Source: Alphaproteobacteria bacterium
GTDB lineage: Bacteria > Pseudomonadota > Alphaproteobacteria > Bin95
DNA: 32,336 nucleotides
Direction of reading: 5' to 3'
Assembly (NCBI GenBank): GCA_022826185.1
Contig: JAJDVH010000094.1
Location: 1 to 32,336, forward strand
A program made the position numbers and the translations under genes. This document shows positions 10,776 to 30,122 of the stretch, in pieces (position 1 is the stretch's first letter; the number at the start of each line of letters is the position of its first letter). Under the pieces are notes generated by a model. That model was not told the DNA's origin. It saw only the letters and a list, made by a program, of their open reading frames with translations, and made no database searches.

Positions 10776-12104
10776 ATGATTGATTACAAACTCTCGTCGC
10801 TTAATGAGGCAGTAAATGCCTTAGAAAACCCTGACTCCCTATCAATACTAAATATTGACGAAGATCTGCTCAACTCGCCTTCTACAACATTAGAGTATCT
10901 AGACCGATGCCGCTCGTGGATGCTACTTCGAAGTATTGCTAGAACAATTCCCGACCTTCTCAGGCAACCAGATAGCATTGCCCTAGTCGGCTTCCTTGGA
11001 CACTTTAGCTCCGGTAAGTCTAGCCTAATTAATGCCATATTAGGGGTCTCAAATGCGGAAAATCCAGGTTATAAACGAGAAGTTGGCTTGCATCCTACGG
11101 ATACTGCCATTACGATCATAACACATCGCGATCACGCTCAATTGGTAAAGAAATCTGCATACACTGCCATTGATATGGTTGATGTAATACACGGCCCTGC
11201 TCTAAATTTCCTTGAACATGCCGCGCTTGTAGATACCCCTGGACTTGGAAACGAGGTCGCAGAGCATGAGGCTGTGACCCGATTTCTGCATCTTTGTCAC
11301 GTTCTCGTAATCACGATTGATGGCCGACGACCATTTGCAGACAAAGATAAAGATTTTGATTTACTTAATACTGCGTTCAACAAGCTCGCGGGTGTCCCGA
11401 AGGTTTTGGCAATAACTAGCGCCGAGGAATTTCTGACTTCTCGCAAGGGAGATTTTTCCACAGACTGGCAACCGGCTTTGGCAGACGCATTCTGGAATGA
11501 AGCTGTGGAGAGGTTGCGGCGTGATTCTAGGTTTCGAAACCATATCGATAGGCTACAAACCGCCCCTAGGTTCTTTGTTGACTCTAAAGAAGGCTTTGGA
11601 GTGGATCGGGTAAAAAGTGAACTAACACCCATTGTGACCGACGACACCCAACGATTGCGAATAAGGCAAGCTCAAGGCGAGTATGTTTTATCTACTGCTG
11701 CCGATGCGTTAGACATTTTACTTGGATATATAAATTCTCGCAGTAAAAATTTGAACCGGTTGTTGCGAGAGGCTCAGAGTCGCGCTGATGGAACTGTTAC
11801 TGCGGTGGAGCAACTTCTTGAATCTCTCGCATCCTCTTTGGCACTAGAAAAACGAAAATTACTAGAATCCCGTCAACGTACGCCGAGCAATATATTCGCA
11901 GTTGAAGATATTATTACGCCACAGGCGGTCAGTGCTAACCAAGGGGCAGCGTTATATAAGCTAGAAGGAGAAATAAAAAAACGGTGCAGCAAGAGTTGCA
12001 ATGGGCGCGAGGCCGAACTTGGCAGAGTGTCCATAAGCACTCCAAAGCTAGGCTACGGAGATGGTTTCGAGCAACGAAAGGCTTACACCTTGGCGCAACA
12101 TTGA
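10776..12104 (+). CDS. dynamin-like GTPase, N-terminal GTPase part (zero frame)
   Basis: A 442-residue zero-frame product. GTPase motifs are G1 GHFSSGKSS (75-83), G2 region PTDTAIT (107-113) and G3 DTPG (153-156). The usual [NT]KxD G4 is replaced by something like ITSAEEF (213-219), which is often variable in bacterial dynamin-like proteins. A helical segment follows to about residue 402. The last 40 residues, after the A-run at 11975-11981, look random and end at 12104, whereas the -1 frame continues as a long open frame. The gene is much richer in A/T and in codons such as ATA, TTA and AGA than its neighbours, a sign of horizontal acquisition. Such proteins bind and remodel membranes on GTP hydrolysis. 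Confidence 0.85.
   Translation: MIDYKLSSLNEAVNALENPDSLSILNIDEDLLNSPSTTLEYLDRCRSWMLLRSIARTIPDLLRQPDSIALVGFLGHFSSGKSSLINAILGVSNAENPGYKREVGLHPTDTAITIITHRDHAQLVKKSAYTAIDMVDVIHGPALNFLEHAALVDTPGLGNEVAEHEAVTRFLHLCHVLVITIDGRRPFADKDKDFDLLNTAFNKLAGVPKVLAITSAEEFLTSRKGDFSTDWQPALADAFWNEAVERLRRDSRFRNHIDRLQTAPRFFVDSKEGFGVDRVKSELTPIVTDDTQRLRIRQAQGEYVLSTAADALDILLGYINSRSKNLNRLLREAQSRADGTVTAVEQLLESLASSLALEKRKLLESRQRTPSNIFAVEDIITPQAVSANQGAALYKLEGEIKKRCSKSCNGREAELGRVSISTPKLGYGDGFEQRKAYTLAQH
11965..12000 (+). promoter_or_regulatory. candidate programmed -1 frameshift site
   Basis: Three elements sit together at the frame junction. AAGGAG, a Shine-Dalgarno-like sequence, is at 11965-11970. A AAA AAA is at 11975-11981 in exactly the zero-frame register of a canonical X XXY YYZ slippery heptamer. 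A small hairpin TGCAGC-AAGA-GTTGCA (one G-T pair) is at 11985-12000. A -1 slip changes codons from AAA AAA CGG to AAA AAA ACG and joins residue 402 to the downstream frame. The same AAGGAG could alternatively serve re-initiation at GTG 11984, although 13 bases is long. Confidence 0.6.
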
Positions 12105-13420
12105 GTCCGAAATTTAGCGTGGATGAGCATAAGCAGGAGCTAATTAGTACTTCTACGAAGTGTGCACGAGCAGTCCTTCGCATCGTAGACCAGCAGTTGG
12201 CCAATGTAATCGCTAACGCTCAACAGCATATACGAACTCGGTCCGAGGCTTGGGAAATAGGGTCTAGGCAGCATGCCATCGAGTCTGCGCTGGAGCTATT
12301 CGAGCGCGTACACGACGACGGCATTAAGTCCTTCTACGCCTACATTTCGGCACCGGCGTCGAGTGATTTGCTACGTGAGCATGGATTTGTGGGATTTGAT
12401 GAATCTGGTGATCAGGCGGTGCGTACAGAGTCAGTGAACGCCTTGCGGTGTTCGGCGGTGGTGGCGGTTCATCAGATGGCTGAAAAGTGTAAGCAGCAGC
12501 TCAGGCAGCTTGAAAAGGGAGAGCCGAGGGAGCCCGGTAGGGTTGAAAGAGATGAGGCTCGACCAGTTGACGGTACGGATACAGATGCGGATATGGATGA
12601 TCAACATTTTGAGTACTTGGAGGCTTATATTGTCGATAGCTGTCAGAGTAAGCTAGACACACTTGTCGCGGGGTTGTCGAAATATATCGAGGAATATGAA
12701 GAGGAAGTTAGCGCCGAGCAGGAGCGGTTTGCAATGCTGAAACATCGTATTTGGAAGGCACGAGCGGCTTTTGCTGGCCGGATTTTTTTGGTCGGCGGCG
12801 TGCTTGTGCTGTTGGGAGGGATATTGAGTCAGGCTGCACCGCAGTACTTTGGAGAGTTGTTGGGGGTGTTTTCTCAGGATCTTTTGGATAAAATCTTGGT
12901 AGGCGCGGCCTCAACGGTTATGGTGTTGTTGATGGCGTATATAGTGACTGGGAGTCGAAACAGAAATGTACGGCGAGCCTTGCGACCTATTTTATTCGAA
13001 AGATTGAAGTCGTATTCGAAGCGAAAGAGCTCAGCAGATGCACTTAGAGCGAGTTTTGAAGAATGTTATGATAAGGTGATTGACGACGTGAAGAGCCAGC
13101 CTCTGGAGTTGGACAAGGCGGTCGCGCGAGGAGTCGTGCGATGGTTAACGAAGCACGCGCAGTCGTATCAGAAAAAGATGCGAGAACTTGAGGCGTTGCG
13201 AGAACTCATTAGAGCACGCTCAGGAGTGATTGACGAATATATAAATGTGGTTAATGAACGACTGGATGAGATACCTAAACAATTACAGGATGCTTCGGAC
13301 AATATAAAGAAGGGTGCTATTGAAGAACACTTGGGGAGGATTCGGACTGCGGCAGAGGCTGTGGAGCGAGTTAGAGTACAGGTTCAGATTGCAGCGGATA
13401 TTGCGATGCCGGTTAGGTGA
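11984..13420 (+). CDS. dynamin-like GTPase, C-terminal membrane and stalk part (-1 frame)
   Basis: A 478-codon frame, open from just after a stop at 11957, so the junction must lie between 11957 and 12104. It begins with helical sequence and has an acidic low-complexity linker (about 178-206). Two adjacent hydrophobic segments follow at about 267-284 and 304-323, then a long coiled-coil tail (about 390-460). A GTPase head followed by helices, a paired membrane insertion and a coiled coil is the layout of BDLP/mitofusin/FZL-type dynamins. Joined by a -1 shift the whole protein is 881 residues. On its own this half has no GTPase domain. Codon usage is as AT-rich as the first half, so both belong to one acquired gene. 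Confidence 0.8.
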   Translation: MQQELQWARGRTWQSVHKHSKARLRRWFRATKGLHLGATLSPKFSVDEHKQELISTSTKCARAVLRIVDQQLANVIANAQQHIRTRSEAWEIGSRQHAIESALELFERVHDDGIKSFYAYISAPASSDLLREHGFVGFDESGDQAVRTESVNALRCSAVVAVHQMAEKCKQQLRQLEKGEPREPGRVERDEARPVDGTDTDADMDDQHFEYLEAYIVDSCQSKLDTLVAGLSKYIEEYEEEVSAEQERFAMLKHRIWKARAAFAGRIFLVGGVLVLLGGILSQAAPQYFGELLGVFSQDLLDKILVGAASTVMVLLMAYIVTGSRNRNVRRALRPILFERLKSYSKRKSSADALRASFEECYDKVIDDVKSQPLELDKAVARGVVRWLTKHAQSYQKKMRELEALRELIRARSGVIDEYINVVNERLDEIPKQLQDASDNIKKGAIEEHLGRIRTAAEAVERVRVQVQIAADIAMPVR

Positions 13421-14622: not shown

Positions 14623-15081
14623 TTACCCGGCGGCGAGCTGGGCGCGGGCCTCGCGGAGGTCGGCGGTCGTCCTGTCGAGGCGCTGGGCGAGCTCGCGCAT
14701 GATCTCCACCGCCATTTGCGGGAACTCCTCCACCAGGCGGAAGAACAGCTCCTTGGAGATGCGCAGCGCCGTCACCGCCTCCGTGGCGCGCACCGTCGCC
14801 GTGCGCGGCACGTCGATCAGGATCGCGATCTCGCCGATGATGTCGTTGCGGCCGAGCTCCGCCACCCTGAGCGGGCCCTGGGGCGTCTTGACCAGCACCT
14901 CGGCCCGGCCCTCCAGCACGATGTAGGCGGCATCGCCGATGTCGCCCTCCCGCACCACGAGGTCGTCCGGCTCGAAGCGCACGCGCTCGCTGGTGAAGGC
15001 CAGCAGGCGGAGCCTGGACGCCTCGATGCGCTGGAACAGCGGGATCGCCCTGAGGGCCTCGACTTCCTCGTTCAACGCCAT
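14623..15081 (-). CDS. cyclic-nucleotide-binding domain protein
   Basis: A 152-residue single-domain protein: the CAP-type beta-barrel with FEPDDLVVREGDIGDAAYIV and the phosphate-binding-cassette region GEIAILIDVPRTATVRA (the usual E and R/TAT are present), then a C-terminal helix ending AQLAAG. There is no helix-turn-helix or enzymatic domain, so it is a stand-alone sensor. It lies 16 bases after the stop of the ABC exporter-like gene on the same strand and follows GAGGA, so the two are probably co-transcribed. It may regulate or dock with that protein; this is inference from position. Confidence 0.88.
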   Translation of the reverse strand: MALNEEVEALRAIPLFQRIEASRLRLLAFTSERVRFEPDDLVVREGDIGDAAYIVLEGRAEVLVKTPQGPLRVAELGRNDIIGEIAILIDVPRTATVRATEAVTALRISKELFFRLVEEFPQMAVEIMRELAQRLDRTTADLREARAQLAAG

Positions 15082-15097: not shown

Positions 15098-17746
15098 CTA
15101 TTGCCGCAGGAGCCGGGCGAACGGGCCGCCGGCCTCCTTCAGCGCCTCGTAGCCGCCGTCCTCGACGGTGCGCCCCTCCTCGACCATGACGGTGCGGGAG
15201 AAGCCTTCCGCCAGCTCCGGGGCTTCCAGCACCCAGATGACGCCGCGCCCCTCCATCGCCGTGCGCACCGCCAGGAAGAGCATCTCGCGCGCCACGCGCT
15301 CGACGCCGGCGGTCGCCATGTTGACCACCAGCAGCGCCGGGCGCTTGAGCAGCGCGCGGGCGAAGGCGAGCTTCTGGCGCTGGGTCTGGGTGAGCCGGCT
15401 GCCGGCGATGCCGACCTCGAAGGCGAGCCCCGCCTCCATCACCGCCTCGCGGATGCCCACCTCGTCGATGACGTCGGCCAGCAGCGCGCTCACCCTGGCC
15501 GCGCCGTGGGCCTGGCCGTGGCGGATGCGCCCGAACAGGATGTTGTCCTGTAGGCTGGCGCGGGCCGTGTAGCGCCCGGCGTCGAAGAACTCGACCGAGG
15601 CGCGGTCCGCCTCCGGCAGGCGCTCGCGGAAGAGGCGCCGCGCCGTGAGCAGGTCCGCGCGGACCTCGTCGTCGATCAGGCCGAGGCGGTGGCGCTCCGG
15701 GATCAGCAGGAAGGGCAGGCCGAGCAGCCGCTCGCGCTCCTCCGCCTCCAGCCCCGCCAGCCCCAGCCGGTCGGCGCGCGCGGCGATGGCGCGGAAGTCG
15801 GGCAGGTCGTCGGCCTCGATGAAGCTGTATTGCTGGAACAGCTCGTGGCCGGGGTCGATGTCGGCGAACAGCTCCACCATGATCTTCGCCACCTGGAGGC
15901 CGACGCCCTCCAGCCGGTCGAGCAGCCCCGCTTCGGCCAGCACGCTGCGCACGAAGGGATGGCCCGCCAGGTTGGCGACCGCGAAGGCCGGGCCGATGGG
16001 CGCGCCGAACAGCAGGTTCTCCGCGACCGTGGCGTTGACATTGTAGGCGTCCGCATCGAAGGGCTCGATGGGGGCGGCGGCGCCCGGCGCGTCGAGGCGC
16101 GAGCGGAGCGCGGCCCGCGCCTCCAGCACCCGCTCGGCAAGGCCGGCATGGGCCTCGGGGTCCAGCACGCCGCGCAGCCCCAGCGTGTAGAGGTCCTCGT
16201 CGAGGCCGACGGCGGCCAGCACCTCCACCATGCGCCGCACCATCTCCTGTCCGGGGCCGGCGCCGGCGGCGTCGTAGTCCACCCAGTCCGCGCCGAAATC
16301 GGCGTCGCTGTTGCCGGAGCGCCGGGCCTCGGCCGCCCGGGCCTCGCGGCGGGCCGCCTCTTCCGGGCCGGCGTCGGCGGGGCGGAGCGGGCGGTGGCGC
16401 AGCCCGAACAGCAGGTTCTCGCCGAGGCTCGCATTGAAGAGGCTGGCGTTCGGCCCGACATAGGCCGCCTGGCGCCCGAACACCGCCTGCGGGAGTTCCG
16501 CCAGCGCCCTGCCGTCCAGATGCGCGCGCCCGCCCGTGACAGTGGCCAGCCGGGCGGCGAGCAGGCCGAGCTCCTCCTTGCCGCCGCCGCTCGGGCCGAC
16601 GATGGCGACATGCTCGCCAAGGCCGACGGAGAAGGTGGCGCTGCGCACGGGCTGCGAAATCTCGTCCTCCGCATAAGCGGCGTTCTCGAAGGCCAGCCGG
16701 CTGTCCGGCCCGATCTGCGGCAGCGCCTCCGCCTCCTCCACCTGCAGCGACTCCTCGATCATGCCGGGCGGGTCGAACTGCTGGACGACCTGGTCGTATT
16801 TGATGCGCGCGTCGGCCTGCTGCTGGTAGTAGGCGAGCAGCTCCTTCCAGGGCGCGGACATGTCCTTGTGGGCGGCGAGCACCGCGACGAGCGCGCCGAT
16901 GCTCAGCTGCCCCTCGATAACCAGGTAGCCGCCGATGGAGTAGAAGAAGAAGGGGGTGAGCTGCGCCAGGAAATTGTTGAGGAACTTGATGAAGAACTTG
17001 CGGCGGAAGATCTCGTAGCGGACGTCGTAGATGCCGCCGAGACGCTCCGCGATATCGGCGCGCAGCCGGTTGGAGCCGTCATCGGCGTGGACGGCCTCGA
17101 TGGTCGAGATCGACTCGCCGATCCGGTCGGAGAGGCGGCGTACATACTGGACCCGCTGCTTGGCGAGCGCGTTCACCTTCCGCTGGAGCTTGGGGATCGC
17201 ATACATCTGGAACGGGTAGAGCGCGATTGCGGCAAGGCCCAGAAAAGGCTCCTGGATGAGCATGAAGGCGGCGATGGTGACCAGGATGCCGAACTGATAG
17301 ACCGGCTGGGCCAGCGCATCGCCCATGAAGCCGCCGAGCGGCTCCACCTCCTGCGTCACCATCGGGATGATCTCGCCCTGGCCCACGCGCTTGAACACCG
17401 GCAGCGGGAAGCGCAGCAGGCGCGAATAGAGGTTGTACCGCAGGCGCCGCAACAGCCGCTCGCCGAGGCGGCCCTTGCCGGTATTGATGTTGAATTTGAA
17501 GGCGCCATTCGCCAGCACGAGGACGAGGAACGTCAAACACAGCACTGCAAGATAGGGGTAGAGTTCCAGTTCCACGCCGAACAGCATTCGGGGACTCTTG
17601 TCGCCGCTCAACGCATCGTCGATGATGATCTTGGGCACTTCGTAGAACACGTAAAGCACCGGAAAAGATACTACCGTCAGCGCCAGCAGGACGAACTGCT
17701 GCCGCAGGCTGTGGCGGAACACGAAGCCGTAGATCGTCTTTTCCAT
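15098..17746 (-). CDS. ABC exporter-like membrane protein with degenerate ATPase domain
   Basis: An 882-residue protein, far longer than the usual ~600 for a half-exporter. Residues 1-320 form a six-helix type I exporter membrane domain. The nucleotide-binding region retains the fold but loses its catalytic residues. Walker A is GPSGGGKEE (384-392), with EE for the Ser/Thr pair; the signature is LTQTQ (785-789) in place of LSGGQ; Walker B is LLVVNMAT (805-812), with N and M for Asp-Glu; the switch His is absent. The segment normally found once after the Q-loop occurs three times: NASLGENLLFG (438-448), NATVAENLLFG (571-581) and RASLQDNILFG (729-739). The start at 17746 follows GGGAG; in-frame Mets further upstream have poorer sites. 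Confidence 0.88.
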   Translation of the reverse strand: MEKTIYGFVFRHSLRQQFVLLALTVVSFPVLYVFYEVPKIIIDDALSGDKSPRMLFGVELELYPYLAVLCLTFLVLVLANGAFKFNINTGKGRLGERLLRRLRYNLYSRLLRFPLPVFKRVGQGEIIPMVTQEVEPLGGFMGDALAQPVYQFGILVTIAAFMLIQEPFLGLAAIALYPFQMYAIPKLQRKVNALAKQRVQYVRRLSDRIGESISTIEAVHADDGSNRLRADIAERLGGIYDVRYEIFRRKFFIKFLNNFLAQLTPFFFYSIGGYLVIEGQLSIGALVAVLAAHKDMSAPWKELLAYYQQQADARIKYDQVVQQFDPPGMIEESLQVEEAEALPQIGPDSRLAFENAAYAEDEISQPVRSATFSVGLGEHVAIVGPSGGGKEELGLLAARLATVTGGRAHLDGRALAELPQAVFGRQAAYVGPNASLFNASLGENLLFGLRHRPLRPADAGPEEAARREARAAEARRSGNSDADFGADWVDYDAAGAGPGQEMVRRMVEVLAAVGLDEDLYTLGLRGVLDPEAHAGLAERVLEARAALRSRLDAPGAAAPIEPFDADAYNVNATVAENLLFGAPIGPAFAVANLAGHPFVRSVLAEAGLLDRLEGVGLQVAKIMVELFADIDPGHELFQQYSFIEADDLPDFRAIAARADRLGLAGLEAEERERLLGLPFLLIPERHRLGLIDDEVRADLLTARRLFRERLPEADRASVEFFDAGRYTARASLQDNILFGRIRHGQAHGAARVSALLADVIDEVGIREAVMEAGLAFEVGIAGSRLTQTQRQKLAFARALLKRPALLVVNMATAGVERVAREMLFLAVRTAMEGRGVIWVLEAPELAEGFSRTVMVEEGRTVEDGGYEALKEAGGPFARLLRQ

Positions 17747-17872
17747 GCCGGCTGCTCCCGCGCCTCGACCGGAAACGCGCATCATGGGCCTATCGGGCGC
17801 AATTGAAAGTGCGGCCTCGGCACACGACATTCAATGGAGCAGCGTTTCCGGAGATATGCGATAGTCGGTCCC

Positions 17873-19078
17873 ATGCGAGGCAAGCGTATCCTCATCTACA
17901 GCCATGACAGCTTCGGGCTCGGCCATCTGCGCCGCTGCCGGACGATCGCGCATGCGCTGGTCGGCAGGCGCCGCGACCTCTCGGTGCTGATCCTGTCGGG
18001 CTCGCCGATCATCGGCAGCTTCGACTTCCGCACGCGGGTCGATTTCGTGCGCGTGCCGGGCATGATCAAGCTGCGCAACGGCGACTACACGCCGCTCAAC
18101 CTCAACATGGCCCCGGAAGAGACGCTGGCCATGCGGGCCTCGATCATCCGGCACACGGCGGAGATCTTCGACCCGGACCTGTTCCTGGTGGACAAGGAGC
18201 CGCTCGGCCTGCGCGGCGAGGTGGCGGAAACGCTGGAAATCCTGCGCCGGCGGGGCGCGCGCCTCGTGCTCGGCCTGCGCGACGTGATGGACGAGCCGGA
18301 AATGCTGGCGCCGGAATGGGAGCGCAAGAAGGTCGCCCCGGCGCTTGCGCGGCTTTACGACCAGATCTGGATATACGGCCTGCCGCAGATCTGCGACCCG
18401 CTGGAGGGGCTCGGCCTGCCGGAGCAGGTGCAGCGCAAGGCGGTCTATACCGGCTACCTGCCGCGCAGCGTGCCGGATGCGCCGCTCTCGCCGGAGGCCG
18501 AGCGCGCGGCCGACGAGCCCTTCGTGCTGGTGACGGCCGGCGGCGGCGGCGACGGCGACGAGTTGATCGACTGGGTGCTGCGCGCCTATGAGCAGGCGGG
18601 GCCGATGCCGTGGCGGGCCGTGCTGGTGTTCGGACCCTTCATGCCGTCGGAGCGCCAGGCGGAGTTCCGCCAGCGGGCGGCGGCGCTGCCGCAGGTCTCG
18701 ACGCTGGTGTTCGACGCGCATCTGGAGGCGTTGATGGAGCGCGCCGCCGGCGTGGTCGCGATGGGCGGCTACAACACGTTTTGCGAGATCCTCTCGCTCG
18801 ACAAGCCGGCCGTGATCGTGCCGCGCACCCGGCCCCGGCTGGAGCAGCGCATCCGCGCCGAACGCGCGCAGGAGCTTGGCCTCGTGCGGATGCTCGATCC
18901 CGACTATCTCGCCGACACCCGCGCCATGGCGGCGGCGATCCGCAATCTCGCCGTGCAGAACCGTCCGTCCGACGTGGTCGTGCCGGGCCTGATGGACGGC
19001 GTGGAGAGCATCGCGCGGCTCACCGACCTGGCGCTGGAGCGGCCGGCGGCCGAGCCGCTCAGGCTCGTGCAGCCTTGA
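17873..19078 (+). CDS. MurG-like GT-B glycosyltransferase (first)
   Basis: A 401-residue GT-B protein. The N-terminal SHDSFGLGHLRRCRTIAHAL carries the GxGH loop of MurG/GT28-type enzymes, and the C-terminal half has VTAGGGGDGDE and MGGYNTFCEILSLDKPAVIV, the nucleotide-sugar-binding region. A Met at 17834 gives 13 extra, unconserved residues; I prefer 17873 because the conserved N-terminus begins there, though neither start has a good ribosome-binding site. A possible -35 TTGAAA near 17800 lies in the divergent intergenic region shared with the ABC gene. It is the first gene of a tightly overlapping run of six. The acceptor and donor are unknown; surface glycan or glycolipid synthesis is inferred from context. 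Confidence 0.87.
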   Translation: MRGKRILIYSHDSFGLGHLRRCRTIAHALVGRRRDLSVLILSGSPIIGSFDFRTRVDFVRVPGMIKLRNGDYTPLNLNMAPEETLAMRASIIRHTAEIFDPDLFLVDKEPLGLRGEVAETLEILRRRGARLVLGLRDVMDEPEMLAPEWERKKVAPALARLYDQIWIYGLPQICDPLEGLGLPEQVQRKAVYTGYLPRSVPDAPLSPEAERAADEPFVLVTAGGGGDGDELIDWVLRAYEQAGPMPWRAVLVFGPFMPSERQAEFRQRAAALPQVSTLVFDAHLEALMERAAGVVAMGGYNTFCEILSLDKPAVIVPRTRPRLEQRIRAERAQELGLVRMLDPDYLADTRAMAAAIRNLAVQNRPSDVVVPGLMDGVESIARLTDLALERPAAEPLRLVQP

Positions 19079-20307
19079 CCGTCGCGACCGTCGTCAAGGG
19101 CTGGCCGCGCCTCTCCGAGACCTTCATCGCGCAGGAAATCCTGGGTCTTGAGGAACGCGGCGTCGCCCAGCGCATCGTCTCGCTGCGCCGCCCGACCGAT
19201 CCGGCCCGCCACCCGATGCACGAGCAGATCGCGGCCCCGGTCCACTACCTGCCGGAATATGTCCGCGAGGAGCCGGTCCGCGTCTGGCGCGGCTGGCAGA
19301 GGGCGCGCCGCCTGCCGGGCTACCGCGCCGCGCGCGCCGCCTGGCTCGCCGACTGGCGGCGCGACCCGACGCCGAACCGGGGACGGCGCTTCGCCCAGGC
19401 GGCGGTGCTGGCGGCGGAACTGCCGGCGGACGTCGAGCGTTTCCATGTCCATTTCCTGCACACGCCCGCTTCGGTCGCCCGTTATGCGAGCCTGATGACC
19501 GGCCTGCCCTGGTCCTGCTCGGCCCATGCCAAGGACATCTGGACGACGCCCGAATGGGAGAAGCGCGAGAAGCTCGCCGGGTGCGAATGGCTCGCGACCT
19601 GCACAAGCGTGGGCGCGGCGCATCTCAAGTCCCTCGCGCCCGCTCCCGAACGGGTGATGCTGGTCTATCACGGCCTCGATCTCGGCCGTTTCCCCTCCCC
19701 GCCGGAGCGCGATGCGCCCGACGGCAGCGACCCGGCCCGGCCGGTGGTCATTGCGTCGGTCGGCCGCCTTGTGGAGAAGAAGGGCTACGACGTTCTGCTC
19801 GCAGCGCTGCGCCTGCTGCCGGCGGCGCTCAACTGGCGCTTCGTGCATATAGGCGGCGGCCGGCTCGCCGGTCCGCTGGCGCGCGCCGCGGAAGGCCTGC
19901 CGGTTTCGTTCCTGGGCGCGCAGCCGCAGGGCCGGGTGATCGAGGAGCTTCGCAAGGCGGACCTCTTCGCGCTCGCCTGCCGGATCGCGCCCGACGGCGA
20001 CCGCGACGGCCTGCCCAATGTGCTGATGGAGGCAGCCTCGCAGGGCCTGCCGGCCGTTTCCACGCGGGTCTCGGCGGTGCCCGAGTTCGTGCGCGCCGGC
20101 GAGACCGGGCTGCTGGTCGAGCCGGAGGACCCGCAGGCCCTTGCGGCGGCGCTCGCCGCACTCATCCGCAACCCGGCGGAGAGGGCCGCCATGGGCCGCG
20201 CGGCCCATACGCGCGTCCGCACGGCCTTTTCCTTCGAGGCCGGCATCGACCGGCTGGCAGAGCGCTTCGAGTCGCCGACATGCGCATTGCGTTCTATGCG
20301 CCGCTGA
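19075..20307 (+). CDS. GT4-family glycosyltransferase
   Basis: A 410-residue GT-B glycosyltransferase. The start is a TTG at 19075 overlapping the previous TGA (TTGA), giving TVATVVKGWPRLSETFIAQE as in relatives that open with a KxxPxxSETF motif. The C-terminal domain has SVGRLVEKKGYDVLLAAL and GDRDGLPNVLMEAASQGLPA, the donor-binding E-x7-E region of GT4 enzymes. It probably acts at the cytoplasmic face of the membrane on a lipid-linked acceptor. Its coupling to the first glycosyltransferase suggests sequential steps in one glycan. It overlaps the next gene by 28 bases. Confidence 0.88.
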   Translation: MTVATVVKGWPRLSETFIAQEILGLEERGVAQRIVSLRRPTDPARHPMHEQIAAPVHYLPEYVREEPVRVWRGWQRARRLPGYRAARAAWLADWRRDPTPNRGRRFAQAAVLAAELPADVERFHVHFLHTPASVARYASLMTGLPWSCSAHAKDIWTTPEWEKREKLAGCEWLATCTSVGAAHLKSLAPAPERVMLVYHGLDLGRFPSPPERDAPDGSDPARPVVIASVGRLVEKKGYDVLLAALRLLPAALNWRFVHIGGGRLAGPLARAAEGLPVSFLGAQPQGRVIEELRKADLFALACRIAPDGDRDGLPNVLMEAASQGLPAVSTRVSAVPEFVRAGETGLLVEPEDPQALAAALAALIRNPAERAAMGRAAHTRVRTAFSFEAGIDRLAERFESPTCALRSMRR

Positions 20308-21323
20308 AACCGCCGGACCATCCCGTACCTTCGGGCGAAAGGCAGATTGCGCGGCTCTTCCTGCGCGCGCTGGAGGCGGCGGGCCACGAGCCCTTCCTCG
20401 CCTCGCGCTTCCGCCCGCTGGACAAGCGGGGCGACCCGTGCCGCCAGCAACGCCTCCGGACGCTCGGGGGCAGACTCGCCGAACGTCTGGAGGCGCGCCT
20501 GCCCGCCTTCGACGTCTGGTTCACCTACCATCTCTACTACAAGGCGCCGGACTGGCTCGGGCCCCGCCTCGCGGCGGCGCGCGGCGCGGCCTACTGGGTG
20601 GCCGAAGCGTCGCACGCCCCGAAGCGCGCCGGCGGCCCCTGGGACATCGGGCATCGCGCGGTCGGGGACGCGATAATCCGCGCAGACCGCCTCTTCTGCC
20701 TCAACCCGAACGACCGCGCCTGCCTCGCGCCGCTTGCTGCGCCGGACCGCCTCATCGACCTGGCGCCGTTTCTCGACGCCTCCGCCTGGCGGGCGGCGTC
20801 CTGCCGGGGCGACCCGCCTCTGCTGGTGACGGTCGCGATGATGCGCGAGGGCGCCAAGCTCGCCTCCTACCGCCGGCTGGGCGCGGCGCTGGCGGCGTTG
20901 GACGACCTGCCCTGGCGGTTGCTCGTCGTGGGCGACGGGCCAGCGCGGGAGCAGGTCGAGGCGGCATTGCCGGCCGGGCGCACCTGCTGGCTCGGCAGGC
21001 GGAGCGAGGCCGAATTGCCGGCGATCCTGGCGAATGCGGACCTCTTCGTCTGGCCGGCGGAGCGCGAGGCCATCGGCATGGCCCTGCTGGAGGCCGCGGC
21101 CGCCGGCCTGCCGGTCGTGGCGGCGGACACGGACGGCGTGCCGGCGGTGGTGGCGCACGGCGAAACCGGCCTGCTGGCGCCGGCGGGCGATGCGGGCGCA
21201 TTTGCCGATTGCCTGCGTGCGCTCCTGGCGGACCCGGACCGGCGGCGGGAGATGGGCGCGGCGGCCAGGAAGCGCGTGCTTGCCCGCCACGACATCGCCC
21301 GGGCGGCAGCGGTGCTGGCATGA
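20280..21323 (+). CDS. GT4-family glycosyltransferase
   Basis: A 347-residue protein starting MRIAFYAPLKPPDHPVPSG, typical of GT4 N-termini. The C-terminal half has LLVVGDGPAREQVEAAL and FVWPAEREAIGMALLEAAAA, the donor-site region with two Glu residues seven apart. The ATG at 20280 lies inside the end of the previous gene, and the stop overlaps the next ATG (ATGA), so translation is coupled. The N-terminal domain resembles those of small alphaproteobacterial transferases with no known substrate. Confidence 0.87.
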   Translation: MRIAFYAPLKPPDHPVPSGERQIARLFLRALEAAGHEPFLASRFRPLDKRGDPCRQQRLRTLGGRLAERLEARLPAFDVWFTYHLYYKAPDWLGPRLAAARGAAYWVAEASHAPKRAGGPWDIGHRAVGDAIIRADRLFCLNPNDRACLAPLAAPDRLIDLAPFLDASAWRAASCRGDPPLLVTVAMMREGAKLASYRRLGAALAALDDLPWRLLVVGDGPAREQVEAALPAGRTCWLGRRSEAELPAILANADLFVWPAEREAIGMALLEAAAAGLPVVAADTDGVPAVVAHGETGLLAPAGDAGAFADCLRALLADPDRRREMGAAARKRVLARHDIARAAAVLA

Positions 21324-21907
21324 CGCTGCTCGGCCTCATCCGTCACGGGCCTACCGTCTGGAACCGGGAAAAACGGGTCCAGGGGCGGCGCGACATACCC
21401 CTCGATGCCGAGGGCGTGGCGGAGGTTGCGCGCTGGAAATTGCCGCCGGCCTTCTCCTCTTTCGACTGGGCGGCGAGCCCGCTTGCCCGCGCGCGGCGCA
21501 CGGCGGCGGTGCTGGCCGGCGGTGCGGTTCCGTGTGCGCCGGCGCTCATCGAGATGGACTGGGGCGACTGGGAAGGCCGGCGGTTGGCCGAACTCCGCGC
21601 CGAACTCGGGCCTGAGATGGCCGAAAACGAGGCGCGCGGCCTCGACTTCCTGCCGCCCGGCGGCGAGAGCCCGCGCATGGTCCAGCGCCGTCTCGCGCCC
21701 TGGCTCGGGGAGGTCGCCCGCCGCGGCAGGCCGACAGTCGCGGTCGCGCATCGCGGCGTGATTCGCGCGCTCTACGCCGCAGCCGCCGGATGGGACATGC
21801 TGGAACCGCCGCCCCGCGCACTCTCCTCGCCGGCGGCACATCTGTTCGAAGTCGCGCCGGGCGGGCGGCCGCGGGTCCGCAGCCTCGATGTGCAGGCATT
21901 CCGATGA
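21320..21907 (+). CDS. histidine phosphatase family protein
   Basis: A 195-residue member of the phosphoglycerate-mutase-like superfamily, branch 1. The catalytic motif LIRHGPTVWNREKRVQG lies at residues 6-22, the acid/base Glu region is ALIEMDWGDWEGR, and the second His is in VAVAHRGVIRAL. Enzymes of this type dephosphorylate sugar phosphates or other small phosphoesters. Embedded between glycosyltransferase genes with 4-base overlaps on both sides, it likely serves the same pathway, for instance by trimming a phosphorylated precursor; that is inference. Confidence 0.9.
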   Translation: MTLLGLIRHGPTVWNREKRVQGRRDIPLDAEGVAEVARWKLPPAFSSFDWAASPLARARRTAAVLAGGAVPCAPALIEMDWGDWEGRRLAELRAELGPEMAENEARGLDFLPPGGESPRMVQRRLAPWLGEVARRGRPTVAVAHRGVIRALYAAAAGWDMLEPPPRALSSPAAHLFEVAPGGRPRVRSLDVQAFR

Positions 21908-23034
21908 AGGTCTTTTTCTGGGTCCAGCACCTGCTCGGCATCGGCCATCTGCGCCGGACGCTGTCACTGGCGAGGGCAACGGCCGCGGCCGGGCTCGAAA
22001 CCGTCGTCGCCTCGGGCGGCCTGCCGGTGCCCGGCGCCGATCCCGGCGGGGCGAAGCTGGTGCAGCTTCCTGCGGTGCGCGCCGTGGACCGCTATTTCAA
22101 GCAGCTGGCGGACGAGCGGGACCGGCCCATCGACGACGCCTGGCGCGGCAGGCGAAAGGCGGCGCTGTTCGAGGCCTATGAGAAAGCGCGGCCGGATGTG
22201 CTGGTTACGGAGCTCTTCCCCTTCGGCCGGCGGCAATTGCGGTTCGAACTGGAGCCGCTGCTGGCGCGGGCGAAGGCCGACGGTTGCGCGACCGTCTCCT
22301 CGGTGCGCGACATTCTGGTCGAGCCGGACAAGCCTGAGCGCATCGGCGAGATGCTGGAGCGGGTGAAGCGCTGGTACGATCTGGTGCTGGTCCACGGCGA
22401 CCCGGCTTTCGTGCCCTTCGATGTGACCTTTCCGGGCCTTGGGGAGATCGCGCCGCTCGCGCGCTATACCGGCTACACGGTGGACCGGGCCGACGCCCCG
22501 CCTTGCGGCGACGGGGAGGGCGAGGTTCTGGTTTCCGCCGGCGGCGGGGCGGTGGGCGAGCCGCTGCTGCGCGCCGCGCTCGCCGCCCGCCCGCTCTCGG
22601 CCGCCCGCAGCCGCCGCTGGCGCTTCCTCGTCGGCGAGGGGCTGCCGGACGCTGTGTTTTCCGATCTCGCGCGCGCCGCGCCTTCCGGCGTGATCGTCGA
22701 GCGCGCCCGCTCCGATTTCCAGGCATTGCTCGGCCGCGCCCATCTCTCGGTCTCGCAGGGCGGCTACAACACGGTGATGGAGGTGCTCGCCGCCGGACTC
22801 CGCGCCGTGGTCGCGCCCTATGCGGGCGGGCATGAGAGCGAACAGACGCTGCGCGCGGGCGCGCTTGCCGAGCGCGGCGCCTTGCAGGTCGTAGCCGAGA
22901 ACGGGCTGTCGCCGGAGAGCCTCGCTGCGGCCATAGACCGGGCGCTCGCCGGCCCGCCGCTCTCGGCCGCCGGCATCGACCTGGGCGGCATCCCGGCGAC
23001 CGTCCGGCTGTTGCAGGGCCTCGATGGCCGCTGA
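21904..23034 (+). CDS. MurG-like GT-B glycosyltransferase (second)
   Basis: A 376-residue protein paralogous in layout to the gene at 17873. It has WVQHLLGIGHLRRTLSLARA at the N-terminus and VSQGGYNTVMEVLAAGLRAV near the C-terminus; the latter aligns with MGGYNTFCEIL of the first. The SAGGGAVGEPLL block marks the start of the second Rossmann domain. The start codon overlaps the phosphatase stop (ATGA) and the end overlaps the deacetylase by 11 bases. Two related MurG-like enzymes in one operon suggest a repeating or two-sugar structure. Donor and acceptor are unknown. Confidence 0.87.
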   Translation: MKVFFWVQHLLGIGHLRRTLSLARATAAAGLETVVASGGLPVPGADPGGAKLVQLPAVRAVDRYFKQLADERDRPIDDAWRGRRKAALFEAYEKARPDVLVTELFPFGRRQLRFELEPLLARAKADGCATVSSVRDILVEPDKPERIGEMLERVKRWYDLVLVHGDPAFVPFDVTFPGLGEIAPLARYTGYTVDRADAPPCGDGEGEVLVSAGGGAVGEPLLRAALAARPLSAARSRRWRFLVGEGLPDAVFSDLARAAPSGVIVERARSDFQALLGRAHLSVSQGGYNTVMEVLAAGLRAVVAPYAGGHESEQTLRAGALAERGALQVVAENGLSPESLAAAIDRALAGPPLSAAGIDLGGIPATVRLLQGLDGR

Positions 23035-25352: not shown

Positions 25353-27236
25353 GTGAGCGCGCTGCTGGAAATCGACAATCTCGCGGTCGATTTCAACACT
25401 CCGGGCGGAGCGGTCACGGCCGTGGACGGCGTGTCCTTCTCAATTCCGCACGGCCGGACGGTCGCCCTGGTCGGGGAATCGGGGTCCGGCAAGTCGGTGA
25501 CGGCGCAGGCGGTCATGGGCATCCTGCCGCGCGCCGCTACCATCCGCTCGGGCGCGATCCGCCTCCGGCGCGAAGGCCTGCCGGAGGTCGATATCGCCGC
25601 GCTCGACCCGGACGGCCGCCAGATGCGCCGGCTGCGCGGCGGCGCGGTCTCGATCATCTTCCAGGAGCCGATGACCTCGCTTTCGCCGCTGCACACCGTG
25701 GGCGACCAGGTCTCCGAGGCGCTCGGGCTGCACAGCGAAACGACCGCGAAGCGGCTGCGCGCCGAGACGGCCGACATGCTGCGCCTGGTCGGCTTCCCGG
25801 ATCCGGAGCGCGCGCTCGACACCTATCCCTTCGAACTCTCGGGCGGCCTGCGCCAGCGGGCGATGATCGCCATGGCGCTGATCTGCCGCCCGGCGCTGCT
25901 GATCGCGGACGAGCCGACCACCGCGCTCGATGTGACCGTCCAGGCGCAGATCCTGAAACTCGTCAAGGACCTCCAGGGCGAGCTCGGCATGGCGGTGCTG
26001 ATGATTACCCACGACCTCGGCGTCGTCGCCAACATGGCCGACGAGCTGGTGGTGATGTATCACGGCCGCATTGTCGAGGCCGGCAGCGCCGAGGACGTGT
26101 TCCGGCGCGCCGGGCACCCCTATCTGAAGGCGCTGCTGCGCGCCGTCCCCCGCTTCCACATGGCCGAGGGCGAACGGCTGACCCCGATCCGCGAGGTCCG
26201 TCCGGAAACCGGCGGGCTGCTCGCCGGGGAAAACCGCGCTGAGCCGGAGGCGCCCGCCGCCCGCCCGCTGCTGGAGGTTCGCGGCCTCACCAAGCGTTAC
26301 GGCAGCCGCAAGGCGGGCCTTTTCGGCGGGGCGGCCGAGGAGGGCGTGCTGGCGGTGGACGATGTCAGCTTCAGTATCGAGCGCGGCGAATGCCTGGGCC
26401 TGGTCGGGGAGAGCGGCTGCGGCAAGAGCACGCTCAGCAAGATCGTCATGCGCGCGCTGACGCCCGACCGGGGCGAAGTGCTGTTCGACGACAACGGCGC
26501 CGCGGTCGATCTGCTGCGGCTGCCGCAGAAGCGCCTGCTCCCTTACCGCCGGCGCATCCAGTATGTGTTCCAGGACCCGTTCAGCGCGCTCAATCCGCGC
26601 ATGACGGCGTTCGACATCGTGTCGGAGCCGCTGGTCGTGCATCGCCTGGCCGGGCCGGAGGAGCGCCGCGGGATCGTGCGCGAGCTGATGAGCCTTGTCG
26701 GCCTCGACGAACGCCATCTCAACCGCTATCCGCACAGCTTTTCGGGCGGCCAGCGCCAGCGCCTCGGCATCGCCCGCGCCCTTGCGCTCAAGCCGGAACT
26801 GCTGCTTTGCGACGAGCCCGTCTCGGCGCTCGACGTCTCGGTGCAGGCGCAGATTCTCAACCTGCTGAAGGACCTGCAGAAGGCGCTCGGCCTCACCTAC
26901 CTGTTCGTGTCGCACAATCTGGCGGTGGTCGATTACATGGCCGGGCGCATCGCCGTGATGTGCGCCGGCAGGCTGGTGGAGCTTGCGCCGCGCGAGGTGC
27001 TGTTCCGCAATCCGCGCCACCCCTATACCAGGGCGCTGCTGGCCGCCGTGCCGGAGCCGGACCTCGACTATCCGCTGGACTTCAAGGCGCTCGCCGACGA
27101 ACGGGCTTCGAAGCCGGAACTCTGGCCGGGCCCCTACCGGCTCGCCGGCGGCGCGAGAGGCGTGTTCGAGGAGATCGAGGAGGGGCATTTCGTCCGCCTC
27201 GGGGAAAACGCCGCGCCCGGCGGGCTCGCCGCGTGA
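25353..27236 (+). CDS. peptide ABC importer, fused double ATPase (DppD-DppF/YejF type)
   Basis: A 627-residue protein with two complete ABC ATPase domains. The first has Walker A GESGSGKS (41-48), signature LSGGL (162-166) and Walker [11 protein letters not shown] (184-193). The second has Walker [10 protein letters not shown] (352-360), signature FSGGQ (463-467) and Walker [10 protein letters not shown] (486-494). Each is followed by an oligopeptide-transporter C-terminal segment ([26 protein letters not shown]). The start is GTG at 25353 after GGGAG. It is the first gene of a four-component importer and overlaps the binding-protein gene by four bases (GTGA). Fusion of the two ATPases is as in YejF-type systems. 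Confidence 0.93.
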
Positions 27237-29107
27237 AGCCGCGGGCCGTCCTGTTCGCGCCGCTCGCCCTCATTGCGGGCGCGTCCCTGGCGGCCCCTGT
27301 CGAAACGCCGTCCCTCGCCGAACAGGTTCGCGCCGGCGCGCTGCCCCCCGTCGAACAGCGCCTGCCGGCCGTCCCGCATCTTGACGGGAAAGCCGGGCCC
27401 GGCCGGCATGGCGGAGACCTGCGGGTGCTGATGGCCAAGGCCAAGGATACGCGCCAGCTGGTCGTTTACGGCTATGCGCGCCTCCTCTGCTACACGCCGG
27501 AGCTCCTGTTGGAGCCCGACATTCTGGAGCGCGTGGAGGTGCAGGAGGGGCGCATCTTCACGCTCCATCTCCGGCCCGGCCACAAATGGTCGGACGGCCA
27601 TCCGTTCACCGCCGAGGACTTCCGCTACTGGTGGGAGGATGTCGCCAACAACGAGGAACTCTCGCCGACCGGGCCGCCGGCGGCGATGCTGGTTGACGGC
27701 GAACCGCCCCTCTTCGAGGTGCTGGGCGACAGGACCGTCCGCTACAGCTGGGCGACGTCCAATGCGGGGTTCCTGCCCGCGCTGGCCGGCGCGCGGCCGC
27801 TCTACATCTACCGCCCGGCGCACTACCTGAAGCGCTTCCACGCGGCCCATGCGCCGCCGGAGGAACTGGCCCGGGCCGTGGAAGAGGCGCGCCGGCGAAG
27901 CTGGGCCGCGCTGCACAACAAGCTCGACAGCCAGTACAAGAACGACAATCCGGACCTGCCGACCCTGCAGCCCTGGGTTCCCTTGACCCGCCCGCCGTCC
28001 GACCGCTTCCTCTTCGCCCGCAACCCCTTTTACCACCGCGTGGACAGCGGCGGCCGCCAGCTTCCCTATATCGACCGCGTGGTGATGAACATTGCGGCGA
28101 GCGGCCTGATACCGGCGAAGACCGCCGCCGGCGCCAGCGATCTCCAGGCGCGCTACCTCAGGTTCGACAATGTGACCTTCCTGAAGCGCGGCGAGGAGCC
28201 GGGTGGCTACAAGGTCCGCCTCTGGCGCACGGGCAAGGGCGCGCATGCGGCGCTTTACCCGAACCTCAATGCCGCCGACCCCGTCTGGAGGTCCCTGTTC
28301 CGGGACCGCCGGGTGCGCCGGGCGCTGTCGCTCGGCCTCTACCGGGAGGAAGTCAACGAGGTCATCTATTTCGGGCTCGCGCTCACCGGCAACAACAGCC
28401 TGCTTCCGGGAAGCCCGCTCTACGACGAGGCGGTCCGGCAGCGCTGGGCGGCCTACGACCCCGATGCGGCCAATGCCCTGCTGGACGAGGCGGGGCTCCG
28501 ATGGGGCGATGACGGGCTGCGCCTGCTGCCCGACGGCCGCCCGGCGGAGCTGATCGTCGAGACCGCCGGCGAGAGCACGGAAGAGACGGACATACTCGAA
28601 CTCGTCCGCGACAGCTGGCAGAAGCTGGGGATTGCGCTGCACACCAAGCCGCTCCAGCGCGAGCTGCTGCGCAACCGCATCTTCTCCGGCCAGACGCTCA
28701 TGTCGGTCTGGTCGGGCTGGGAAAACGGGCTCGCCTCCGCCGATATGAGCCCGGCCGAGCTCGCACCCACCAGCCAGCAGCAACTGCAATGGCCGAAATG
28801 GGGCCAGTATCACGAGACCCGGGGCGCAGCGGGCGAACCGGTCGATATGGAAACGCCGCGGCGGCTCTACGCGCTGAACGAGGCCTGGCGCCACGCCCGC
28901 GACTCCGGGGAGCGCCGGCGCATCTGGCGCGAAATGCTGGAGATCCATGCCGAGGAAGTGTTCATGCTGGGAATCGTCGGCGGAATCCGCCAGCCCGTGG
29001 TCGTGTCCGACCGCCTGAGGGGCGTGCCGGAAGAGGGCTATTACAACTGGGAGCCGGGCGCGCATTTCGGCATATTCCGGCCCGACCGGTTCTGGCTGGC
29101 GAACTGA
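27233..29107 (+). CDS. peptide ABC importer, periplasmic binding protein (SBP family 5)
   Basis: A 624-residue family 5 solute-binding protein. The N-terminus [20 protein letters not shown] is a signal peptide without a lipobox Cys, so a soluble periplasmic protein is expected. Family blocks are TLHLRPGHKWSDGHPFTAEDF, in shortened form GHKWSDGHPFTAEDFRYWW, and FRDRRVRRALSLGLYREEVN. The size is at the large end, close to YejA-type proteins. The GTG start overlaps the ATPase stop. It would deliver peptides or similar ligands to the two permeases downstream. The ligand cannot be predicted. Confidence 0.9.
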   Translation: MKPRAVLFAPLALIAGASLAAPVETPSLAEQVRAGALPPVEQRLPAVPHLDGKAGPGRHGGDLRVLMAKAKDTRQLVVYGYARLLCYTPELLLEPDILERVEVQEGRIFTLHLRPGHKWSDGHPFTAEDFRYWWEDVANNEELSPTGPPAAMLVDGEPPLFEVLGDRTVRYSWATSNAGFLPALAGARPLYIYRPAHYLKRFHAAHAPPEELARAVEEARRRSWAALHNKLDSQYKNDNPDLPTLQPWVPLTRPPSDRFLFARNPFYHRVDSGGRQLPYIDRVVMNIAASGLIPAKTAAGASDLQARYLRFDNVTFLKRGEEPGGYKVRLWRTGKGAHAALYPNLNAADPVWRSLFRDRRVRRALSLGLYREEVNEVIYFGLALTGNNSLLPGSPLYDEAVRQRWAAYDPDAANALLDEAGLRWGDDGLRLLPDGRPAELIVETAGESTEETDILELVRDSWQKLGIALHTKPLQRELLRNRIFSGQTLMSVWSGWENGLASADMSPAELAPTSQQQLQWPKWGQYHETRGAAGEPVDMETPRRLYALNEAWRHARDSGERRRIWREMLEIHAEEVFMLGIVGGIRQPVVVSDRLRGVPEEGYYNWEPGAHFGIFRPDRFWLAN

Positions 29108-29123
29108 TGGCGGGGCGGGAAGG

Positions 29124-30122
29124 ATGCTGACCTATATCTTCCGGCGCCTGTTCATCGCGGTCCCGACGCTCGCGGTGGTCAGCGCCATCATCTTCGTCAT
29201 CATCCAGCTTCCGCCGGGCGACTACCTCACCACCTACATCGCCGAGCTGCAGTCCCAGGGCGAGTCCGCGGACAGCGGCAAGATCGAGTTCCTGCGCAAG
29301 CAATACGGCCTCGACCAGCCGCTGTGGAAGCAATATGTCTTCTGGGTCCTCGGCATGTTCCAGGGCGATTTCGGCTATTCCTTCGAATACGACCTGCCGG
29401 TCTCCGATGTGGTCGGCGACCGGCTCTGGCTCTCGCTGCTGCTCAACTTCTCGACCGTCATCTTCATCTGGGTCGTCGCCTTCCCGATCGGCTTCTACTC
29501 CGCGACGCACCAGTACTCCTGGGGCGACCACGGCCTTACCTTCCTCGGCTTTCTTGGCCTCGCCACGCCGAATTTCCTCCTCGCGCTCGTGCTCATGTAT
29601 TTCCTCAGGATCGAGTTCGGCATCTCCATCGGCGGGATGATGGACCCGCAATATGCCGAGCAGCCCATGTCCTGGGCGAAGACGGTGTCGATAGCGGAGC
29701 ACCTGATCGTGCCGGTGGTGGTGATCGGCACGGCCGGCACCGCGGGCATGATCCGCCGGCTCCGCGCCAACCTGCTGGACGAGTTGCAGAAGCAGTATGT
29801 CGTGACCGGCCGCGCCAAGGGGCTGCCCAATCTGCGCCTGCTGCTGAAATACCCGGTGCGGATGTCGCTCAACCCCTTCGTGGCCGACATCGGCAACATG
29901 CTGCCGCAGATCGTCTCCGGGTCCGCGATCGTGGCCATGGTGATGAGCCTGCCGACCACGGGGCCGATGCTGATCGACGCGCTGCGCAGCCAGGACATGT
30001 ATCTCGCCGGCTCCTTCCTGATGTTCCTCTCGGTGCTCACCATCGTCGGCATGCTGCTGTCCGACCTGGCGCTCGCCCTGCTCGACCCGCGCATCCGGCT
30101 CGGGGGCCGCGCCCAGCGATGA
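29124..30122 (+). CDS. peptide ABC importer permease (DppB/YejB type)
   Basis: A 332-residue permease. It starts MLTYIFRRLFIAVPTLAVVS, the conserved DppB opening, and carries the ATPase-contacting EAA-like loop near RLRANLLDELQKQYVVTGRAKG. Between helix 1 and helix 2 there is a periplasmic stretch with RKQYGLDQPLWKQYVFWVLG, typical of the family. The ATG at 29124 follows GGGAAGG, 16 bases after the binding-protein stop. The stop overlaps the next start (ATGA). Confidence 0.93.
   Translation: MLTYIFRRLFIAVPTLAVVSAIIFVIIQLPPGDYLTTYIAELQSQGESADSGKIEFLRKQYGLDQPLWKQYVFWVLGMFQGDFGYSFEYDLPVSDVVGDRLWLSLLLNFSTVIFIWVVAFPIGFYSATHQYSWGDHGLTFLGFLGLATPNFLLALVLMYFLRIEFGISIGGMMDPQYAEQPMSWAKTVSIAEHLIVPVVVIGTAGTAGMIRRLRANLLDELQKQYVVTGRAKGLPNLRLLLKYPVRMSLNPFVADIGNMLPQIVSGSAIVAMVMSLPTTGPMLIDALRSQDMYLAGSFLMFLSVLTIVGMLLSDLALALLDPRIRLGGRAQR

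Follow-up and report, generated by a model that had tools for sequence, protein, structure and literature searches.

The ABC-exporter-like protein encoded on the minus strand of the window, a 32,336-nt stretch of an alphaproteobacterial contig, belongs to a family whose nucleotide-binding domain (NBD) has been remodelled around an atypical ATP site. Its members in rhizobia, roseobacters and Azospirillum currently carry the annotation 'ABC transporter ATP-binding protein' or 'ABC transporter transmembrane domain-containing protein'. They are thus annotated as ordinary ABC transporters, yet the full set of normal ATP-site motifs was present in none of the 86 relatives examined. Most likely, the NBD has become a regulatory gate, since the transmembrane domain (TMD) can persist without an NBD, and the NBD itself is constrained, non-canonical, self-enlarged and tied to a cyclic-nucleotide-binding (cNMP) domain. 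We tentatively propose, giving it somewhat less than an even chance, that the protein is an ABC-exporter-fold transporter uncoupled from normal ATP hydrolysis, with the remodelled NBD and the cNMP protein together forming the gate. We found no account of this family in the open-access literature; one may exist elsewhere.

The minus-strand reading frame is open from 17830 (910 aa) and gives 882 aa from the methionine at 17746, a start that relatives use too; the plus frame over 15098-17746 is interrupted by a stop. An exporter TMD is followed by a C-terminal NBD fold, as in ABCB-like exporters, with matches to PF00664 (ABC_membrane; residues 39-291, E 4.1e-22, 79.6 bits vs. a cut-off of 28) and PF00005 (ABC_tran; residues 369-471, E 1.4e-9, 39.1 bits vs. 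a cut-off of 25). In an AlphaFold2 model based on 28 sequences (mean pLDDT 78.3, with most blocks between residues 350 and 860 at 80-94), the predicted NBD keeps its overall fold and superposes on the ComA NBD (3vx4) with a Z of 25.8 and an rmsd of 2.5 over 229 of 239 residues. An earlier note on this DNA, made from the sequence, had named a second complete ATP site as an observation that would speak against a degenerate NBD; the model holds one NBD core with one site, and the second is absent. Features of the locus are collected in Table 1.

Table 1. Features of the ABC gene and its neighbours in the window.
Feature	Position	Strand	Basis or remark
ABC-exporter-like protein, 882 aa	15098..17746	-	ORF opens at 17830
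Transmembrane domain, residues 1-322	16781..17746	-	Pfam and family alignment
Altered Walker A GPSGGGKEE, residues 384-392	16571..16597	-	
First post-Q-loop segment GENLLFG, residues 442-448, canonical place	16403..16423	-	
Insert, residues 449-728	15563..16402	-	Family alignment
Second copy AENLLFG, residues 575-581	16004..16024	-	
Third copy QDNILFG, residues 733-739	15530..15550	-	
Signature place LTQTQ, residues 785-789	15380..15394	-	Stands for LSGGQ
Altered Walker B VVNM, residues 807-810	15317..15328	-	
Glu at switch-His place, residue 841	15224..15226	-	
Cyclic-nucleotide-binding-domain protein, 152 aa, next gene downstream	14623..15081	-	PF00027 E 1.3e-20
Divergent glycosyltransferase, GT28 C-terminal type	17834..19078	+	PF04101
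GT4-type glycosyltransferase	19060..20307	+	PF00534 E 2.4e-28
ORF, 3' part is second GT4-type glycosyltransferase	19554..21323	+	PF00534 E 2.2e-29, residues 445-574
Histidine phosphatase	21320..21907	+	PF00300 E 2e-37
Second glycosyltransferase, GT28 C-terminal type	21901..23034	+	PF04101 E 1.6e-11

None of the four canonical motifs (Walker A, signature, Walker B DE, switch His) is present in the window protein (0/4), whose signature place reads LTQTQRQK in full (residues 785-792). The earlier note had reported these four changes and the three repeated segments, and all of its motif letters and repeat positions proved accurate. Its description of the motifs as degraded is right in that they have changed and too strong in that they are altered, not erased, since the protein retains K390, the lysine of Walker A, together with the P-loop glycines. 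By comparison, in the six best-matching other ABC exporters of the source genome, GxxxxGK[ST], DE and the switch His were each found in all six, and xSGG[QKE] matched in five. Walker A and the signature are 104 residues apart in those five and 401 apart in the window protein, which carries about 297 extra residues between the two motifs. None of the six has more than one xENLLFG-like segment.

The family alignment comprised 118 rows of at least 820 aa (query included, some genes present twice, shorter frames dropped), thinned of near-identical rows to 86; also dropped were L099 and L146 (contig ends) and L071 after residue 459, where it looks chimeric, and L035 and L036 are one gene. All four main motifs occurred together in no row, and 46 of the 86 had none of the four. 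The abnormal ATPase site is therefore a property of the family, and the homologues with canonical Walker motifs that had been expected to contradict it do exist in part: 16 rows have a canonical Walker A (14 of them from Thalassospira), 15 have the Walker B DE and 14 have both, whereas a canonical signature ([ST]GG[QEK]) was found in none of the 86. The switch His is present in 24 rows and missing in 62, and Gln occupies the Q-loop place in 13. Residue 390 is Lys in 60 rows and Arg in 24 (Lys/Arg kept in 84/86), an acid (Glu or Asp) replaces the usual Ser/Thr at residue 391 in 60, Asp is absent from its Walker B place in 62, and residue 810 is the Walker B Glu in 51. The 14 Thalassospira rows combine SGKS with DE and are without the switch His and the canonical signature. 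Conservation of the EE, NM and LTQTQ substitutions across the family, which the note had raised as a check, was not observed; KEE, NM and LTQTQ occur together only in the window protein's near relatives (L038-L044). Judged from the aligned residues, no row has a typical ATP site, the departures from the norm differ between rows, and some of the nucleotide-binding apparatus is often retained. ATP binding and some turnover are possible because of the near-constant Lys/Arg, the frequent Walker B Glu and the SGKS and DE of the Thalassospira rows.

These retained residues bear on a rather unlikely alternative, in which the protein is still an ATP-driven exporter with unusual active-site chemistry, the metal-binding role of the Walker B Asp (now Asn) having passed to the Walker A acid. 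Consistent with such an exchange, an acid at residue 391 accompanies Asn at residue 809 in 40 rows and Ser/Thr accompanies Asp in 14, while mixed pairs are few (acid-Asp in seven, Ser/Thr-Asn in three; other letters in 22 of the 86). The Walker A Lys/Arg and the complete NBD fold of the model would also fit. However, the 391/809 pairing reduces to two independent pairs on starred tree branches, a number at which no significance is possible, and the non-canonical signature in 86/86 rows, the loss of the switch His in 62 and the existence of relatives without an NBD argue against an ATP-driven mechanism.

Another feature of the family is the long stretch between the first post-Q-loop segment and the signature place, which spans 316-415 residues in all 86 rows. 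The earlier note had described a tripled Q-loop-like segment; the triplication (at residues 442, 575 and 733) stands, with the repeated stretch lying just after the Q-loop. Profiles of copies 2 and 3 matched each other with an E of 1.8e-11 (probability 97.6), and with 2.5e-15 (98.5) when wider slices were used. The link of copy 1 is weaker, since its profile probabilities are lower: copies 1 and 3 gave E 6.4e-6 (67.8), or 5.9e-5 (65.3) with wider slices, and copies 1 and 2, whose slices share one residue, gave E 3.3e-5 (46.0), the wider comparison being left out as only the slice overlap matched. In twelve controls that used reversed or unrelated segments, E values were 0.02 to 0.66. Residues 416-450 of NdvA were matched twice by the query, by the end of stretch 88-466 and by the start of stretch 721-881, and a strand-helix-strand pattern recurs in the AlphaFold2 model at residues 427-455, 560-583 and 718-741. 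The internal repeats suspected between Walker A and the signature are borne out by the profile comparisons, the double NdvA match and the model pattern, all of which indicate that the post-Q-loop unit of this NBD is repeated within the insert. Conservation around copies 2 and 3 (majority fraction 0.67 and 0.64) is among the higher values for parts of the NBD. With the insert modelled alone (residues 450-728, mean pLDDT 78.7), the best Foldseek match had an E of 2.2 and a second fold comparison gave a best Z of 3.2, to ABCF1, which is within noise and no proof of a new fold.

A search of 60 genomes gave relatives in 26 (own included; E ≤1e-40), one of 385 genomes of the source's class gave them in 131 (own included; E ≤1e-60), mostly at full length, and one of 398 genomes of the phylum in 28, 27 of them from the same class (own included) and one from outside it (G499). 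At least eight of the 131 hold only pieces, contig-end halves, a stop-bearing frame (G221) or the membrane domain alone (G334). A plasmid collection yielded 323 records with a relative, 144 named Rhizobium and 80 Sinorhizobium, and in 260 of the 323 a single place covered at least 80% of the query. The TMD has the highest family-wide mean majority fraction of the large domains (0.67 vs. 0.49-0.60). In four same-genus pairs, dN/dS ranged over 0.21-0.30 in the TMD and 0.23-0.29 in the insert; the part with the third copy and the signature gave 0.18-0.26 and the two remaining NBD parts 0.11-0.45, so that TMD, insert and NBD are all under purifying selection. The suggestion that the altered motifs reflect selection and not decay is thus upheld, because 131 of the 385 class genomes hold a relative, in most cases at full length, and dN/dS is well below 1 in every part, the NBD included.

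That the gene is decaying or an assembly artefact is accordingly extremely improbable. Such a reading could draw on the single stop inside the G221 match and on the Sinorhizobium meliloti 1021 pSymB copy, which lies in two frames near its start, and is contradicted by the 118 rows of at least 820 aa and by the dN/dS values; conservation refutes decay for the family, and a single strain's copy may be broken. The pSymB relative (L141) lies at about 842 kb; most other Sinorhizobium rows listed are aligned from residue 1, unlike L141. Its identity with MsbA2 was considered and rejected, since the MsbA2 operon is placed near 938 kb of pSymB (PMC3687685).

The next gene downstream encodes a small cNMP-domain protein in which no Pfam domain besides PF00027 was found. 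It carries an intact cassette, GEIAILIDVPRTATVRA, which we take to resemble the phosphate-binding cassette of CAP-type domains. A cNMP-domain homologue lies near the ABC gene, or is fused with it, in 50 of 51 loci (the exception is L114), a sample that is not fully independent, as L042 and L101 are one genome and several loci come from one genus. Neighbours were counted by homology search; a simple ORF chooser missed some small or out-competed genes, including the cNMP gene of the window. The annotation of Rhizobium sp. CIAT894 lists a 'cyclic nucleotide-binding domain-containing protein' as the next gene, and in 22 Thalassospira loci the cNMP match falls inside the ABC frame (one was scanned with Pfam). 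These 22 loci (L049-L070) have in common an upstream metallo-beta-lactamase gene, a representative of which matches Apyc1 (PF23023, E 1.7e-27), whose members are cyclic-nucleotide phosphodiesterases. A voltage-gated-type ion channel gene was also seen upstream of the ABC-cNMP fusion in 18 Thalassospira loci (PF00520 E 1e-40 in L050).

Nine further proteins of about 345-434 aa share this membrane domain and stop 8-47 residues beyond it (L145 has its start cut by a contig end). All nine match PF00664, and one of the nine, L096, matches SbmA_BacA (E 0.021) below the cut-off (14.6 bits vs. 24 in the longer frame of this protein). Sixty-five TMD positions are conserved in ≥93% of 89 rows with an NBD; 47 of these are kept in at least eight of the nine, including E133, E135, G139, K294, D295, P299, E302 and L303. 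Searches for an NBD in L096-L098 gave no match better than E 0.30, and G334 and G499, in which the full-length form was not found, have no place matching residues 470-731. In a quick tree, from which two outgroup rows (L003 and L007) were dropped, a branch with an SH-aLRT of 88 set the nine apart, L098 and L145 being on long branches. The proteins without an NBD are thus probably a sister clade of the NBD-bearing family; the tree is unrooted for the direction of change, whether loss or regain of canonical letters or loss of the NBD, because of the great length of the outgroup branches. Evidently, such a membrane domain can persist in the absence of an NBD. No cNMP domain was found in L096-L098 (best E 0.67), which suggests that the cNMP link goes with the NBD and not with transport as such; at another locus without an NBD (L148), a cNMP-domain gene lies about 4.9 kb away. 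On plasmids of the Roseobacter strains Phaeobacter P66, Pseudosulfitobacter SC1-26 and Sulfitobacter SK025 (L142, L147 and L148), the NBD-less gene sits among copper genes, and two of these three plasmids are typed as conjugative.

The NBD-less relatives would also fit if the window protein were an SbmA-like secondary transporter with a vestigial NBD, retained as a structural remnant, and an incidental cNMP protein. There is precedent for such a history, as SbmA is described as proton-driven and evolved from an ABC TMD (PMC13316013), and for proton-coupled transport by an ABC exporter in LmrA (PMC2704374). We nevertheless consider it quite unlikely that the NBD is vestigial, given that the NBD and insert are about as constrained as the TMD, that the insert is present in every row (86/86) with well conserved regions around copies 2 and 3, and that a cNMP domain occurs in 50 of the 51 loci.

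NBD-bearing and NBD-less members occur together in four genomes (G119, G388, G714 and G717). Known heterodimeric exporters often have one degenerate site, and this coexistence could point to a protein that is the degenerate half of such an exporter, with a partner bearing a working NBD elsewhere in the genome. This seems very unlikely: no gene next to the ABC gene was recognised as a second exporter, the relative was a single match in 24 of the 26 genomes that have one, and, while the source genome holds other exporters, the best-scoring of them is 24% identical over residues 73-450.

The plus-strand genes beyond the ABC gene suggest a connection with saccharides that is common, not universal. 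Of the 29 non-Thalassospira loci, 20 have a homologue of the first GT28-type glycosyltransferase and 21 have one of the GT4-type enzyme at 19060..20307; the former is found in none of 22 Thalassospira loci. Some loci are cut by contig ends. One of the NBD-less genes (L098) also sits at the glycosyltransferase locus. Farther on, beyond the glycosyltransferases, the window encodes an oligopeptide-type ABC importer at 25353-30122 (a GsiA/YejF-like double ATPase and an OppB-like permease), homologues of whose ATPase gene were present in 17 of 55 loci compared. On the other side, the stretch 10776-13420 has a GC content of about 0.48-0.51, compared with about 0.70 for the window, and was perhaps acquired horizontally, to judge by its composition. 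It holds an ORF for a dynamin-like GTPase (PF00350 E 1.4e-8; PADLOC LeoA E 3e-7), overlapped in another frame by a second ORF without a Pfam match at cut-off.

A regulated transporter fits this neighbourhood better than the scaffold, channel or receptor that had been suggested for the protein. From its anatomy we infer that the protein works as a homodimer, in which the remodelled NBD, perhaps still holding nucleotide, would serve as a docking and gating platform without hydrolysing ATP. The cNMP domain would bind a cyclic nucleotide and, through contact with the NBD, open or close the transporter. Transport itself might be downhill or ion-coupled, by analogy with SbmA, and in lineages with the glycosyltransferase cluster the cargo may be a saccharide-bearing product of that locus. 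It is conceivable, if unlikely, that the family is a second lineage, besides SbmA, in which an exporter membrane domain has been released from ATP in graded stages, with a cyclic nucleotide replacing ATP as the gating ligand in the NBD-bearing stages. The stages would be the near-canonical Walker letters of Thalassospira, the fully altered NBD with its self-repeated subdomain (the window protein and most relatives) and the absence of an NBD. If the proposed reading of a gated transporter uncoupled from ATP hydrolysis holds, the family would offer a natural series in which to study how a primary pump turns into an ATP-free transporter, and a bacterial example of second-messenger gating in an ABC protein; its NBD-bearing and NBD-less relatives make both ideas directly testable.

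Among known systems, the MsbA, NdvA and Sav1866 exporters (PF00664 and PF00005) share the membrane domain and overall NBD fold of the window protein, and NdvA and Sav1866 are among its best-scoring solved relatives. It differs from all three in its four altered NBD motifs, long insert and cNMP partner, and it falls below the cut-off for all of the best 25 of 112 NCBIfam families matched, of which MsbA_lipidA is the best listed (144.9 bits vs. 602); for the cyanophycin-associated ABC family (NF052233) it scores 68.3 bits vs. a cut-off of 880. A cNMP-domain protein is also tied to an ABC exporter in the bacteriocin-type pair TIGR03896 (cNMP) and TIGR03796 (ABC), of which neither the window partner (46.5 bits vs. 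161.05) nor the ABC protein (139.4 bits vs. 853.3) is a member. Like SbmA, the NBD-less relatives are exporter membrane domains without an NBD; the window protein, unlike SbmA/BacA-like (SLiPT) proteins, has an NBD and gave no match to PF05992 at E 0.01. CFTR and SUR are ABC-fold proteins whose NBDs gate rather than pump, but in them one ATP site or more still works, and they are not known to have a cNMP-binding subunit, unlike the window family. Rad50/SMC proteins and UvrA, like the window protein, carry an insert between Walker A and the signature. In those proteins it consists of coiled coils, or of zinc and DNA- or protein-binding modules, whereas that of the window protein contains repeats of the NBD's own segment.
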